From Bacteroidales bacterium (GTDB lineage: Bacteria; Bacteroidota; Bacteroidia; Bacteroidales; Bacteroidaceae), in NCBI GenBank assembly GCA_012517855.1, contig JAAYUD010000067.1, positions 62,001 to 126,000 of the forward strand: DNA of 64,000 nucleotides, in the 5' to 3' direction. The notes beneath the pieces are model-generated. The model was not told the origin of the DNA, ran no database searches, and saw only the letters and a list, made by a program, of their open reading frames with translations. The stretch's first letter is position 1. Every line of letters starts with the position of its first letter. This document shows positions 5,622-58,670 of this stretch, piece after piece. A program made the position numbers and the translations under genes.

Positions 5622-5782
5622 TGTCGCATGTGTCGCATAGAAACCCTATAAACTCTATATTTTTTTTATTGGCCTCTGATGCGTTTATCATTATGATACC
5701 GTAATGATACGAAATATGATTACATAAAAACCCCAAATAAAAAAAATTAAAGAGGAGGGAATCCTATGCGACACATGCGACA
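5622..5782. repeat. Imperfect inverted-repeat element (hairpin or MITE-like)
   Basis: A perfect 19-base inverted repeat (TGTCGCATGTGTCGCATAG at 5622-5640 and its reverse complement at 5764-5782) bounds about 160 bases. Pairing continues inward imperfectly through CCCT- and T8-containing stretches, and the centre holds the small palindrome-rich block around ATCATTATGATACC. No ORF is present. The structure resembles a miniature inverted-repeat element or a structured RNA; no transposase gene or clear target duplication was found. Confidence 0.6.
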
Positions 5783-28565: not shown

Positions 28566-28699
28566 AAAAAATCAGACGTATGTCGCAGCAATAACTAACG
28601 GATGTTGTGGAAGAAACTAACGTTAGTTGTTAGTATAACTAACGTTACTTACCGCAGTAACTTCCGTTAGTTATTGCTGCGACATACGTCTGTTTTTTT
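28566..28699. repeat. Dispersed long palindrome, copy 2 (inverted relative to copy 1)
   Basis: The arms 28573-28601 and 28664-28692 are a perfect 29-base inverted repeat beginning CAGACGTATGTCGC, flanked by an A-run on the left and TTTTTTT on the right, which add to the stem. The middle contains AACTAACGTTAGTT (28615-28628) and a GTAA-rich block. It follows the stop of the methyltransferase gene on the minus strand. A diverged half copy, starting CCGTTAGTCACTGCCG, lies just outside at 28531-28556. Bases 28169-28530 hold no gene. Confidence 0.88.
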
Positions 28700-41626: not shown

Positions 41627-41757
41627 AAAAAACTAACGTATGTCGCTGTAATAACTAACGGAAGTTACTGCGGTAACTAACAGAAGTTATTCAGACAACT
41701 AACGTTAGTTTCTTCTACAACATCCGTTAGTTACGGCGATAACATACGTTAGTTTTT
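41627..41757. repeat. Dispersed long palindrome, copy 3 (same direction as copy 1)
   Basis: Begins with an A-run and AACTAACGTATGTCGCTG and ends ACATACGTTAGTTTTT. The order of inner blocks (GGAAGTTACTGCGGTAAC, AACTAACGTTAGTT at 41697-41710, TTCTTC, ACAACATCCGTTAG) is the same as in copy 1. It sits between convergent gcvT and the GH20 gene although gcvT already has its own terminator. The right arm is more diverged than in other copies. Bases 41758-41944 hold no gene. Confidence 0.85.
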
Positions 41758-41944: not shown

Positions 41945-44068
41945 TTAATGTCGGTTTACAATAATCTCGTCGGTAAATATCCACCCGCCATAAGTATTAC
42001 TACTATGTGCCTGATAGCGGATATATCTTCCACTAACATTTCCTTTCCATGTATAACTTTTTATAAAGAAACTTGGTTCTTTGTCGACTTTGAATTCTTG
42101 CTTATCTATTTGTTTGAAGTTTATGCCATCGTCTGAGGTCGAAATAATTATTTCTGCGGGAGCGAAAACATAGGGGCCTGATGATTGCATAAAATCGGCA
42201 CTTATATCATGTATGTCGATTGTTTTTTCCATATCAATGGTTACATCAACTTTATTGTGTGCAATAAAACCTTGCCATGCACCATCTCCATAACTCCAAT
42301 CCCCACGCTTGCCATCTGTAAGAGTTGAATCTCCATTAGCTTTGTAACGTTGACTATAAGGAGAATTGTACTGTACTTTTTTACCTATAGCATCATGCAT
42401 GACCAAATTCATTGATTCTTTGCGATGCCCTTCTTCTTGTTCCAAATCAAATACATTATATCCTTTTAAAGCCAGGTACTTGTTGGCTTCCAAAACACGA
42501 GCTCTAAAGTTCTCGTATGTACGTCCAATAACGCCTGGTTTCGTCCATCCGACTTCAGAAATTGCCAATATTCTGGGGAATATCATATAATCAGCATGTC
42601 TTGCTGTTGCAATATGCTCTGTCCATAAATTAGCTTGTAGCCCATCAATATACAAAGAGGCTGGCGTGTTTTTCAAACTGTCAGGTATGGGTTCGTAAGA
42701 ATAAACTTTATCGAGTGGGAGATATCCTCCATTAGACGTTGGTTGTTTCTCGGGAGCATCTTGTACATTGTTAATGTAGCAATAAGCTTCGGGTGTCATG
42801 ATTGCATGATGTCCCGACTTTGCAGCTTCTATTCCTCCTTGTTCACCTCGCCAAGACATAACTGTGGCTTTTGGCGCTAATTTGCCTTCTAATATTTCGT
42901 CCCATCCAAGTAGCTTACGTCCACGGGAGTTGAGAAATCTTTCTATTCGGCATATCAAGTAGCTTTGTAGCTCTTCTTCATTCTTCAAATGCTCTTCTTT
43001 CATTCTTTTCTGACACAACGGACATGCTTTCCATGCATTTTTTCCTGCTTCGTCGCCGCCAATATGTATGTATTCAGATGGGAAAAGTTTAAGAACTTCT
43101 TTCAATACGTTTTCTAAAAAACGAAATGTGATTTCTTTGCCTATACAGAATTCTCCATTTTGATAAGGCTTTCCCGAACAAGATAATTCAGGATAAGCAT
43201 AAAGAACTTCTTCGCTATGCCCCGGCATTTCTATTTCTGGTATGATCGTAATATGACGTAGGGCTGCATATTTAACGATTTCTTTAATGTCATGTTGAGT
43301 ATAATATCCGCCATAACTATCTTTATTGTCTTTTTTGCAATAAAGTCTATTACCATTTACCCACCATTTATTCCAGTCGGATTCTGTCCTATAGGCAGTC
43401 TCCTCGGTTAATTTCGGATACTTTTTTATTTGTATTCTCCATCCTGCAGCGTCTGTCAGATGTAGGTGGAAGTAGTTTATTTTAAAGTAGGCTAGTGCGT
43501 CAATTTGTTTAAAAATGAATTCTTTTGGAAAAAAATGACGAGAAACATCAAGCATAAGCCCACGATATTTAAAGCGTGGATAGTCTATGATCTCTGCACA
43601 CGAAACGCTGGAGGTCGTTGCTGAAGTATGTCGGGTGAGTTGCAGCAGAGACTGTATTCCATAAAATAGACCTATTGCATCTGATGCTGTGATTCCTATT
43701 TGCTCAGAAGAAATATTGAGCGTATACTTCTGTTTGTCAATATCGGAAGAGTTTTTACCTTTTTCATTTTTCTTCTCAGTAGTAATATTTAATTTGATGA
43801 TGTTTTTGTTGTCCTTTGCTCCACCAATTAAGAATTCATAAGGTAGTGTCTGCAAATATTTTCGCATCATTCGTTTTCCTTTTCCTTTCAGGTTCATGTA
43901 AAGCTTGGTGCTTTCATTTATGGTAAAATGTCCCTCTTCTATTTTCATCGATTGTGGGAGGGGAATGATCGATTGTGATCTCACGAGGATAGGTTTATAG
44001 CATAGGCAGATGATAATGCATATTGATAAAATAGAGAACCTATTAATATAATGGCTTGTGATCTTCAT
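41945..44068 (-). CDS. GH20 beta-N-acetylhexosaminidase with C-terminal discoidin-like domain
   Basis: The 707-residue secreted enzyme has an N-terminal GH20b domain (to about 160), a GH20 barrel with YRGLMLDVSRHFFP, HLHLTDAAGWRIQI and the catalytic pair in HIGGDE (Asp339, Glu340), and a C-terminal region from about 570 (KGDWSYGDGAWQGF; TIDIHDISADFM; YIRYQAHSS) resembling F5/8-type carbohydrate-binding domains. It removes beta-linked GlcNAc or GalNAc from host glycans. The gene stands alone. Confidence 0.93.
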   Translation of the reverse strand: MKITSHYINRFSILSICIIICLCYKPILVRSQSIIPLPQSMKIEEGHFTINESTKLYMNLKGKGKRMMRKYLQTLPYEFLIGGAKDNKNIIKLNITTEKKNEKGKNSSDIDKQKYTLNISSEQIGITASDAIGLFYGIQSLLQLTRHTSATTSSVSCAEIIDYPRFKYRGLMLDVSRHFFPKEFIFKQIDALAYFKINYFHLHLTDAAGWRIQIKKYPKLTEETAYRTESDWNKWWVNGNRLYCKKDNKDSYGGYYTQHDIKEIVKYAALRHITIIPEIEMPGHSEEVLYAYPELSCSGKPYQNGEFCIGKEITFRFLENVLKEVLKLFPSEYIHIGGDEAGKNAWKACPLCQKRMKEEHLKNEEELQSYLICRIERFLNSRGRKLLGWDEILEGKLAPKATVMSWRGEQGGIEAAKSGHHAIMTPEAYCYINNVQDAPEKQPTSNGGYLPLDKVYSYEPIPDSLKNTPASLYIDGLQANLWTEHIATARHADYMIFPRILAISEVGWTKPGVIGRTYENFRARVLEANKYLALKGYNVFDLEQEEGHRKESMNLVMHDAIGKKVQYNSPYSQRYKANGDSTLTDGKRGDWSYGDGAWQGFIAHNKVDVTIDMEKTIDIHDISADFMQSSGPYVFAPAEIIISTSDDGINFKQIDKQEFKVDKEPSFFIKSYTWKGNVSGRYIRYQAHSSNTYGGWIFTDEIIVNRH

Positions 44069-44276: not shown

Positions 44277-45599
44277 TCAATTATCATGCTTGTGTTTGAT
44301 ATTGAATCTTGAGTATTTATAAATATGATTTTTATTAATAAGAAAATTGATACGTAAATGGAAATCAATATCTGTTTGTGGATTTATTAAATAACTTAAA
44401 TCTAGATTTTTTATATGATACCATTCCATTATTGATGATTGAAAAATAGCAATTTTAAAGATCCCTTTCCCTCTGGAAAAGTTATATTCACACTTATCTA
44501 TACTATTGCAGATATTAGTTAATGAATTATTGTCAAATATTATTTCTGGCTTGAAATCTGATTCAATGCCCATATTATCGACAATTTTAAAATTAGAAAA
44601 TTCTTCTATGAAAAGTTCAAATAATTGTTTTTCCCATTTTCTGAATAAGTTGTAAGGACTTCTAAAATAGTAACATCTATAGTTGCCTTTTTCAATCGAA
44701 CCGATAGAAAAGCTAGCAAATTTTTGATCTGGATGGTCATGTATGTCTTTTTGTGATATACTAATACTTTGAAATACATCAATAATCATTTGTACTATTG
44801 TTTTGGTTGTTTCGCTTGGTATATAATGAATTATCATTTCAGCTAAATAACTGTTGTCAATATCATCTATTATTATTTTATATTTTCTTAAGAATTTATT
44901 ATATCCATGGTTATATGGATTTCTAGGGTCGCTTGAGATGAAACTTCCTGTTAAAAACTCACCGAATTTCTTATATGATATCTCTTTTAAATCTTTGGCT
45001 TCTAATTTGAGATCAAAAGATTTTGGTATCATATTTTTTATTTGTTGCAAAAGATCGTTTAAGATAATCTGTTCATTCATCACATTTAATTCTTTCTCTT
45101 TTACATTAAGAGCGAATGTTACCCCTAGGGGAATAGAATAAGGGGAGTCGAGCAAGGAAAATAACGATCTGATATTAATATTCACTTGCAAAACGACAAA
45201 AACTTTTTTATTGTCTATCCTTTTTATATATTTCTTTATGTAGTGATATACAATGTTGTTTAAAAGAAATTTGTTTGATGTTGTAATATTAGTCAAGTTT
45301 CTTGATGTGAAAGTACAATAAGTTTGGCATATAGCTTTATATAGTGCATTATTTACTGCTTTCTCTTCAGAGTCCTCTAATGCAGAAATGATAAGTGAGA
45401 TTTTATCACTTTTTATAGACTCTTTCGGATCGGTTGACATTCTCTTTGATGTGGTTTCATCATTGAGAATAGGATATATATTTTCATTTTGGACTAATTT
45501 AAGTTGTCTTTTTTTTAATAATAGTTCCTTTCTAAAGGAAACGTAATGAATAAAATGTTGATTGATTCGCTGCATAAAATAAGCTATATATGTTCTCAT
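44277..45599 (-). CDS. Unknown 440-residue protein, last gene of the phase-variable operon
   Basis: I do not recognise the family. The protein has no signal peptide or membrane helix; it is rich in Ile, Asn, Lys and Ser. An N-terminal basic segment (FRKELLLKKRQLKLVQ) is followed by mixed alpha/beta sequence, including KKVFVVLQVNINIRSLFSLL, a region with GSFISSDPRNPYNHGYNKFLRKYKIII, and HDHPDQKFASFSIGSIEKGNYRCYYFRS. It follows the UpxY-like gene by 63 bases and shares its low GC content. It is probably a cytoplasmic protein expressed only when the promoter upstream is flipped on. Confidence 0.7.
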   Translation of the reverse strand: MRTYIAYFMQRINQHFIHYVSFRKELLLKKRQLKLVQNENIYPILNDETTSKRMSTDPKESIKSDKISLIISALEDSEEKAVNNALYKAICQTYCTFTSRNLTNITTSNKFLLNNIVYHYIKKYIKRIDNKKVFVVLQVNINIRSLFSLLDSPYSIPLGVTFALNVKEKELNVMNEQIILNDLLQQIKNMIPKSFDLKLEAKDLKEISYKKFGEFLTGSFISSDPRNPYNHGYNKFLRKYKIIIDDIDNSYLAEMIIHYIPSETTKTIVQMIIDVFQSISISQKDIHDHPDQKFASFSIGSIEKGNYRCYYFRSPYNLFRKWEKQLFELFIEEFSNFKIVDNMGIESDFKPEIIFDNNSLTNICNSIDKCEYNFSRGKGIFKIAIFQSSIMEWYHIKNLDLSYLINPQTDIDFHLRINFLINKNHIYKYSRFNIKHKHDN

Positions 45600-45662: not shown

Positions 45663-46130
45663 TTATACATTTAGATGCTTCTTTGTCTTTTTGTTTTCTG
45701 CAATTAAATGGTCTATTATTTGAATAATCTTTTTTAAATGTAGATTAGCAGACTTTATTTCTTTTACTTGATAATTAGATAAAATGAATGGGGCATCTTG
45801 ATTTGGTACTCGAAGATATCTACAAAAAGGGGCTTCTTTTAATATTTTAGATAACTCTGCCTGGCTTATATTAATAAATATAGTCATAGGAATTATAGGA
45901 GATATATTCCTTAATCCGTATTTTTTTTCTCTTTTTTCTCCTGGTAAGAAAAATTCAATTTTCATTCGGTTAAGTAAATCACATGTTTTTTCTTCTTTAT
46001 ATCTTTGCACTTGAATTATTAACCATTTTCTGTCTGTATGTCGAATAAATAGATCTTTTGTATTGGATTTAAATTCTTCATTTGCTATTGGTAAAGCTCT
46101 GTTTTTTATTTCTTGAATATTTTTTTTCAT
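45663..46130 (-). CDS. UpxY/NusG-like N-terminal domain protein (putative antiterminator)
   Basis: The 155-residue protein resembles the NGN domain of UpxY antiterminators: DRKWLIIQVQRYKEEKTCDLLNRMKIEFFLPG, then ISPIIPMTIFINI in place of the usual (V)IPMMIFVHV, and RYLRVPNQDAPFILSNYQ in place of the RG...PAVIPD-Q segment. The C-terminal part is a basic helix, and there is no KOW domain. UpxY proteins bind polymerase paused in the leader of their own operon and prevent early termination, usually in capsule loci. Here the neighbours are not capsule genes. Divergence from the family is large, so the assignment is moderate. Confidence 0.6.
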   Translation of the reverse strand: MKKNIQEIKNRALPIANEEFKSNTKDLFIRHTDRKWLIIQVQRYKEEKTCDLLNRMKIEFFLPGEKREKKYGLRNISPIIPMTIFINISQAELSKILKEAPFCRYLRVPNQDAPFILSNYQVKEIKSANLHLKKIIQIIDHLIAENKKTKKHLNV

Positions 46131-46142
46131 ATATCAACTCTT

Positions 46143-46490
46143 TTATTTTATCTTCATGTGTAATGTGACTATTTGTCTGGATCCCGCAACCGTTTGTATG
46201 CATACACGAATATTTAAAACATCGCACCATAAAAGATTATATTTTTTAGGAGAAAATCCTTTTATGTAAAGCTTGTTTTTATCTATACGGATAAGTTCAA
46301 AAAAATAGGATATCATACAAAAACCATTTTCGTCAATATCGGCATATTGGATGTCTTCAAAAGAATTTATTAATAACAAAGTAGTATCAAGCAGAAAATA
46401 GTTTTTTAAGTATTTTATAAAGGATAAACAGCTTGTCTTTTCAACACGCCAGAAATTCTCTTTTTTTTCTATTAGAATTACTTGTCTCAT
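46143..46490 (-). CDS. Unknown 115-residue protein, first gene of the phase-variable operon
   Basis: The small protein starts MRQVILIEKKENFWRVEK and is predicted alpha/beta with no membrane helix or signal peptide. No family was recognised. Its ATG lies 76 bases from the inverted repeat at 46566, and its stop is 12 bases before the UpxY-like gene. A position ahead of a UpxY-like gene is unusual; it could be a small regulator or a partner of the 440-residue protein. Confidence 0.65.
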   Translation of the reverse strand: MRQVILIEKKENFWRVEKTSCLSFIKYLKNYFLLDTTLLLINSFEDIQYADIDENGFCMISYFFELIRIDKNKLYIKGFSPKKYNLLWCDVLNIRVCIQTVAGSRQIVTLHMKIK

Positions 46491-46623
46491 CTTTTTACTA
46501 CCTGTATTTTATCATAAGAATACATTTATTCTGTGTATATAATTCAATGGCCAGAATAGAATCTATTACTTATTAGGTAACGGATTTATATCGTCAGATA
46601 TAAGTAGAAGCGTGTTATTTGTT

Positions 46624-46648
46624 ATTGTGCTAATGAGTTTAGCACAAT
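46624..46648. promoter_or_regulatory. Perfect palindrome inside the invertible segment
   Basis: A 10-base arm ATTGTGCTAA and its complement are separated by five bases. No T-run follows on either strand, so an operator or a binding site for an accessory protein is more likely than a terminator. Confidence 0.5.
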
Positions 46649-46776
46649 GAGTAGATTTTATCTAACAAAAAATATTATAAGGAAAAGAGAACAGGAATAT
46701 TAGCATAGAATATCAAAATAGATGTTTTATAGTATTGAAATTGGCAATGAAATGCTATAAAGAAAATATGAAAAAG

Positions 46777-46808
46777 TTTTTATATATAAATTCTTTTATC
46801 TATTTTTG
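46777..46808 (+). promoter_or_regulatory. Promoter within the invertible segment (now pointing away from the operon)
   Basis: TATTTTTG at 46801-46808 (followed by C) matches the Bacteroidales -7 consensus, with a GTTTTT box at 46776-46781 about 20 bases upstream. Transcription would start near 46815 and run rightwards, antisense to the recombinase gene. After inversion the same boxes would lie near 46609-46602 on the minus strand, with a start near 46595 and a leader of about 105 bases before the first operon gene. Confidence 0.75.
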
Positions 46809-46908
46809 CGAAAATAAATTATAAATCCGTTACCTAATAAGTAACAGCGTTTTTATATTTTGTCATATTCATCTTTGTTAAGAGTGAAAAGTATCATATT
46901 TATTTTGG

Positions 46909-47850
46909 TCATATTATATTTCTTACAAAGCGATAGTTCTTTTCATTTACTTTTGTTCGCTCTGCAATATTGAATCCTTTTAAATAAATTTGAGTCGTTT
47001 TTATAGACTTATGCCCTAATGATTCACTTATCATTTCGATGGGGACACCTAGGTTTTTAGCGATTGTTGCCCATGAATGCCTAAAAGTATAAGATGAAAC
47101 AGGAATATTCGTCATTTGGAAGGTCTTGGCAAGTTTTTTTAAGTTCGTGTTAAACCTGCGCAAGGCTGATTGGTATTCGGTATACCCTTCTTTTGTACGT
47201 TTAGAATAATTTCCACTTAAGATAGAAAACAAATAATCATGCTGGTTGGACTTAGAAGTATTTTCATCTTTTACTAAGTGATGTACAAATTTGTATGCAG
47301 AATTTAATATGGCAATATCTATCGGTGTCCCTGTCTTTACCCTACAATAGTCTAATGTCCCATTTTTTAAATTTGATTTTTCCATGTGGGCAAAATCGAC
47401 GAAAGACATTCCACTAAATTGAAATAGCAAGTTCGCTATTTGTTGGGTTTTGTATAATTCTTTATTTTTAGTTTTTCCATATAATAATTTGTGAAGGTCT
47501 TTCGGCGAAATGGCCTTTTTATGGGTGCTGTCTATACCTGTATATACATCATGAAATAATCTGTGAATGTAAGGTGCTAAATTGGCATCTATTGCTCTAT
47601 TATAGATGCTGCGAAGCATTCTCATGTAAGTAGAGATCGTATTTAGCTTTTTGTGATGGTCCAATAAAAACTGATAATATTGCTTTAAGTTATCTCTGTT
47701 AACTTGTTTAAAGGTAACGATTTTTGTTCCACAAAACTCTGTAAAGGAACGTAGAGCGTTACTGTAGAGATGGGCAGTCGAATACCTTCCTTCCAATTCT
47801 AGTTGGATGATACGCTTATTTGCAAAATTGGTTAAAGTACTTTCTTTCAT
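46909..47850 (-). CDS. Tyrosine recombinase, probable invertase of the adjacent promoter
   Basis: The 313-residue protein has an N-terminal SAM-like domain (FANKRIIQLELEGRYSTAHLYSNALRSFTEF) and a catalytic domain: Arg257-His258 in YTFRHSWAT, His280 in LGHKS, nucleophile Tyr289 in TTQIYLKGF, and the beta-hairpin lysine in RVKTGTP. Where many Bacteroides members have Arg in RGMSFVD, this reads FSGMSFVDFAHM, so the first catalytic arginine is not obvious. The gene ends 65 bases from the invertible segment; local recombinases of this family commonly flip the neighbouring promoter. It could alternatively be a remnant integrase. Confidence 0.85.
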   Translation of the reverse strand: MKESTLTNFANKRIIQLELEGRYSTAHLYSNALRSFTEFCGTKIVTFKQVNRDNLKQYYQFLLDHHKKLNTISTYMRMLRSIYNRAIDANLAPYIHRLFHDVYTGIDSTHKKAISPKDLHKLLYGKTKNKELYKTQQIANLLFQFSGMSFVDFAHMEKSNLKNGTLDYCRVKTGTPIDIAILNSAYKFVHHLVKDENTSKSNQHDYLFSILSGNYSKRTKEGYTEYQSALRRFNTNLKKLAKTFQMTNIPVSSYTFRHSWATIAKNLGVPIEMISESLGHKSIKTTQIYLKGFNIAERTKVNEKNYRFVRNII

Positions 47851-58536: not shown

Positions 58537-58670
58537 AAAAAAACAGATGTATGTCGCAGCCATAACTAACGTATGTCGCAGGAGAAACTAACGTTAGTTG
58601 TCATGATAACTAACGTTAGTTACCGCAGTAACTTCCTTTAGTTATGGCTGCGACATACGTTAGTTTTTTT
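58537..58670. repeat. Dispersed long palindrome, copy 4 (same direction as copy 2)
   Basis: Starts with an A-run and ends with TTAGTTTTTTT. Arms such as TATGTCGCAGCCATAACTAA at the left pair with GTTATGGCTGCGACATACG at the right. Two copies of AACTAACGTTAGTT lie in the middle, one more than in other copies. It is between the GH43 and ytxH genes, both on the plus strand. Confidence 0.85.

Follow-up and report, generated by a model that had tools for sequence, protein, structure and literature searches.

A three-gene operon of a gut-type Bacteroidaceae bacterium, which stands behind a promoter-bearing segment bounded by inverted repeats and a tyrosine recombinase gene, is best explained, with good probability, as the target of a phase-variation switch of the kind known from Bacteroidales. 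The switch itself is of a known kind, every testable anatomical feature of which was found here, and its cargo is novel. The locus lies in the window, a stretch of 64,000 nucleotides on contig C16 in a genome of 3.64 Mb; the genus is represented by this single genome, and the locus is known from one assembly. Its gene order runs from a recombinase of ~310 aa through repeats with a GTTAC-N7-GTAAC core to a co-directional operon, with the following features (positions are those of the window).

46909 to 47850, minus strand: tyrosine recombinase of 313 aa, the presumed invertase
46820 to 46844, minus strand: right inverted repeat, the recombinase-proximal arm, with its GTTAC-N7-GTAAC core at 46829-46845
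46801 to 46808, plus strand: -7 promoter box TATTTTTG, directed away from the operon (OFF), at the same segment position as in relatives
46591 to 46819, no strand: presumed invertible segment of 229 nt
46566 to 46590, plus strand: left inverted repeat, the operon-proximal arm, TTACTTATTAGGTAACGGATTTATA
46143 to 46490, minus strand: gene 1 of the operon, 115 aa, with no family and no convincing relatives
45663 to 46130, minus strand: gene 2, 155 aa, with a NusG N-terminal (NGN) domain of UpxY type and without KOW
44277 to 45599, minus strand: gene 3, 440 aa, with residues 63-288 related to secreted LPP20/FlgT-like proteins and no evident signal peptide

In the proposed mechanism the recombinase would recombine the two repeats, inverting the segment between them. 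As assembled, the promoter would fire to the right, in the antisense direction of the recombinase gene, leaving the operon (46490-44277) OFF; in the inverted state it would fire leftwards, with a leader of about 106 nt before gene 1. The anatomy of the locus, its recurrence in relatives, the retained catalytic residues and the lack of another consensus promoter are direct observations, and we infer that the segment inverts in this organism and thereby controls expression of the operon.

The repeats and the promoter between them

The perfect 25-bp repeats that had been predicted around 229 bases are present: the arms are complementary over 25 nt without error and over 28 nt with one mismatch, and stand 229 nt apart, whereas 200 dinucleotide-shuffled versions of the region 44.0-48.3 kb yielded perfect inverted repeats of at most 16 nt. 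Both arms carry a palindromic core, as expected of repeats that enclose a few hundred bp in this type of switch. The proposed 5-7-5 form of this core (GTTAC, 7 bases, GTAAC) is perfect in the right arm, which reads GTTAC-CTAATAA-GTAAC, and departs from it in the left arm by one mismatch at the outer end, GTAAT (46565). No second inverted pair of the same repeat motif exists elsewhere in the genome. The only other perfect match, at C9:30063, was rejected as a second inversion site because it is the hairpin of a terminator that follows a TPR-type gene; at this transcription terminator (C9:30063-30079, locus L002) the stem core is nearly identical to the inversion site (CCGTTACTTATTAAGTAACGG followed by a T run).

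Other symmetrical elements were seen nearby and elsewhere. Within the segment, a 9-bp dyad at 46622-46650 (TTGTGCTAA-N5-TTAGCACAA) scores as terminator-like with a weak tail; it would stand upstream of the promoter in whichever orientation and is a possible operator. Dispersed intergenic inverted repeats containing CGTATGTCGCAGCAATAACTAACG or parts of it occur at 5622-5782, 28573-28692, 41628-41757 and 58549-58665, and one of this type also occurs on contig C56 (L035, 9797-9912).

The original prediction of a consensus promoter at 46777-46808 that points right holds for its -7 box and less well for its -33 element. The box TATTTTTG reads rightwards, toward the recombinase gene and antisense to it, an orientation that bears out the claim that the switch was captured OFF, and the -33 element is imperfect, with at best three of four matches to TTTG. 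The segment thus contains a Bacteroides-type promoter near one arm, with a weak -33 element. Its -7 box is 43 nt inside the recombinase-proximal arm, a distance that is 40-48 nt in most relatives where the consensus was found. Again as predicted, the minus strand as assembled has no TAnnTTTG in 46491-46900 that would read into the operon. After in-silico inversion exactly one such box reads into the operon; it ends at 46602, about 106 nt ahead of the start codon of gene 1 (ATG 46490), in good agreement with the ~105 bases anticipated.

The recombinase and the recurrence of the layout

The tyrosine recombinase expected next door has the Pfam SAM-like and catalytic domains and retains R170, K172, Y254, R257, H280 and Y289, residues that are nearly invariant in 76 relatives; its closest relatives share 40-45% identity. 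Position 146 is Ser here and Arg in 67 of the 76, and the nine others also lack Arg at this position (they have Gln, His or Leu), most of them beside repeats. A recombinase inactivated by Ser146 was considered and not upheld, given this variation and the retained catalytic set, and related integrases carry the catalytic Arg at alternative positions (PMC8138268). Judged from these residues, the enzyme is probably active. In G466, a genome resembling that of P. massiliensis, an operon of fimbrial type is situated between two different recombinase genes (L075, 6072-14590), the second of which is the closest relative (45%) of the window recombinase.

A scan of named genomes yielded 79 loci, 76 of them with a readable recombinase. 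Repeats directly follow the recombinase in 64 of these 76 loci, and a TTAC-N7-GTAA core, the type found here, is present in 62. Across genomes of the family Bacteroidaceae, recombinase, repeat and operon keep the same order, spacing and direction. This layout in dozens of loci, together with a nearly identical repeat that inverts in another species (see below), supports the assignment to the invertible-promoter design of Bacteroidales. When promoter state was read by strict consensus over the 64 loci, 31 were OFF, 1 was ON and 32 were undetermined; since assemblies usually show the OFF state, its capture here is unremarkable. Among strongly similar segments of relatives no flipped counterpart was seen, and all 105 of 105 pairs had the same orientation, so this sample is itself no demonstration of inversion. 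In many of the relatives (L109, L112, L122, L139, L146, L167, L177 and others), the first gene after the repeats encodes a small protein of 103-142 aa with the motif MLT..TQ.AIAVLHDI. Proteins of this type open many invertible surface operons and are perhaps regulators; they are unrelated in sequence to gene 1 of the window.

The closest published parallel in sequence comes from B. xylanisolvens, in which the repeat GTTACTTCTTAGGTAACGGA flanks a 290-bp region beside an integrase, with inversion supported by long reads, and also stands before UpxY operons (PMC12118408). The window repeat, GTTACTTATTAGGTAACGGA, is one base apart from it (19/20 identity; PMC12118408). The capsular polysaccharide (CPS) promoters of that species share with the window an upstream invertase and a UpxY-type gene in the operon, and the CPS4 operon consists, as here, of three genes only (PMC12118408). 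However, the UpxY genes of B. xylanisolvens adjoin the repeats and are followed by polysaccharide genes (PMC12118408), whereas the operon in the window opens with an orphan gene, encodes a UpxY-like protein that lacks KOW and has no glycan gene.

An invertible promoter of the same type in B. fragilis governs its operon and stays mostly OFF when the bacteria are cultured (PMC4747536). The Tsr19/BF2766 system, with IVp-I and IVp-II, resembles the window in having a single tyrosine recombinase beside the promoter that it inverts, in its short operons, and in the predominantly OFF state of IVp-I in culture, the window being assembled OFF (PMC4747536). It differs in that the Tsr19 cargo consists of EPS genes plus an outer-membrane gene cluster at two target sites (PMC4747536), whereas one site was found in the window.

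The operon and its cargo

Fimbrial or surface operons behind GTTAC-type repeats (P. massiliensis, L075 and L108; B. ihuae, L162) are like the window in recombinase, core, promoter position and gene order, yet their cargo proteins have signal peptides or are lipoproteins and the three proteins of the window show neither. The prediction that neither a capsule nor fimbriae are encoded by the operon was correct, as no glycan-synthesis, export, fimbrillin or other surface family was found in its three genes, and it overlooked the connection of gene 2 to capsule regulators. Gene 1 is an orphan with borderline matches only and a mean pLDDT of 38 in a single-sequence AlphaFold model. No PADLOC match was obtained for the cargo, and single-protein scans of the genome and of viral contigs gave no matches. 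The hexosaminidase gene at 41945-44068 was considered as a fourth member of the operon and set aside; it is unlikely to depend on the switch because it has promoter-like boxes of its own, TACCTTTG and TATCTTTG, at 44151-44113.

Gene 2 has an NGN domain of the NusG/UpxY type (Pfam E 6e-7), and this NGN-only protein connects the operon with capsule-operon regulators. The match of gene 2 to NF033644 reaches 40.7 bits, where the cut-off is 100, and covers profile positions 1-98 of 164. In the alignment the protein ends where full-length UpxY and NusG carry KOW, so that there is no full-length NGN plus KOW match above the cut-off, and PHROGs gave only a weak antiterminator match for this gene. It therefore resembles the UpxY antiterminators in its NGN domain and its place in an invertible-promoter operon, and is unlike them in lacking KOW, in its score and in standing second in the operon. 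Elsewhere the genome carries a normal NusG, on C103, and a single full-length UpxY, on C60. The latter is followed by a 151-aa protein that is UpxZ-like by eye and has no NCBIfam match (L033, 7086-7613 and 8749-9204 for the pair); this stretch, which lies close to the end of the contig, showed no inverted repeat of at least 16 nt.

A search of 393 genomes of the order with gene 3 gave five weak matches, four of which are mutually homologous, secreted LPP20/FlgT-like proteins beside DUF6175-type genes (the neighbour is Pfam-confirmed for one relative and was recognized by eye for the others). When a profile of these four, with the window excluded, was run against 892 ORFs, gene 3 was the sole match (E 1e-14), the relatives having been found initially with gene 3 as the query. 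With similarity that extends over its N-terminal domain, gene 3 is, by this sequence comparison, a distant relative of secreted LPP20/FlgT-like proteins; unlike them, it has no signal peptide by inspection. No DUF6175 match was found in the genome, in a search in which the controls were also silent, and no other relatives of gene 3 were found across 335 genomes spread over the phylum or on plasmids and phages. A single-sequence AlphaFold model of gene 3 had a mean pLDDT of 32 and, like that of gene 1, was too poor to be of use.

Competing explanations and the role of the proposed switch

The block at 44.0-48.3 kb has a GC content of 24-33%, compared with about 40% around it, a difference suggesting that the cargo, the switch and the recombinase were acquired, or are evolving, as one unit. 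The same low GC content would also fit a decayed phase-variable capsule locus, in which the capsule genes have been lost, upxY has been cut to its NGN half and the switch is idle or locked OFF. Degeneration of upxY has been published for cases in which other genes were inserted behind the invertible promoters of glycan loci (PMC8748976), and the absence of KOW from gene 2 and the uncommon Ser146 of the recombinase agree with such a history. However, the recombinase and operon genes are intact as four frames that exceed chance length (116, 156 and 441 codons for the operon ORFs, compared with shuffle maxima of 79, 95 and 128), the repeats are still perfect over 25 nt and the recombinase keeps its catalytic residues. 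An unrelated gene also precedes the upxY-like gene, and gene 3 belongs to a non-capsule family. Decay is a possible but unlikely account of the locus.

It is improbable that inversion matters little to the operon because a fixed promoter outside the consensus scan, or read-through from the recombinase gene, already serves it. The ~420 nt between the recombinase stop and gene 1 contain no strong terminator except the hairpin of the repeat itself, a promoter outside the TAnnTTTG consensus could still act there, and the leader has weak sigma-70-like matches, though no more than expected by chance. Against this stand the lack of TAnnTTTG on the minus strand of the leader and the observation that this arrangement governs expression in a relative that has been studied (PMC4747536). 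A role of the repeats as hairpin or terminator, which the similar palindrome at C9:30063 plainly has, is scarcely credible for two 25-nt arms that lie 229 nt apart, reach past the palindromic core, adjoin a recombinase of the appropriate family and match the recombination sites of 62 named loci.

For the cargo of the proposed phase-variation switch, the most likely reading, itself held tentatively, is that gene 2 binds RNA polymerase as an NGN-only UpxY-like protein, with some role for gene 3 as well. Gene 2 might help transcription through its own AT-rich operon, or compete with full-length NusG or UpxY in ON cells, and the switch may thereby have effects at other loci, for example at the genome's single full UpxY locus (C60). 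It is also conceivable, though rather doubtful, that the switch turns on a regulator and not a surface structure, with the KOW-less protein acting in trans on elongation elsewhere; if so, phase variation of one small operon would switch a wider programme.

The switch is standard equipment of Bacteroidaceae, and it is the cargo that is unusual. If expressed, the operon would be phase-variable, would have no recognisable surface product and would carry an NGN-only relative of capsule-operon antiterminators. In this way, cross-regulation of capsule loci by truncated regulators would become testable.
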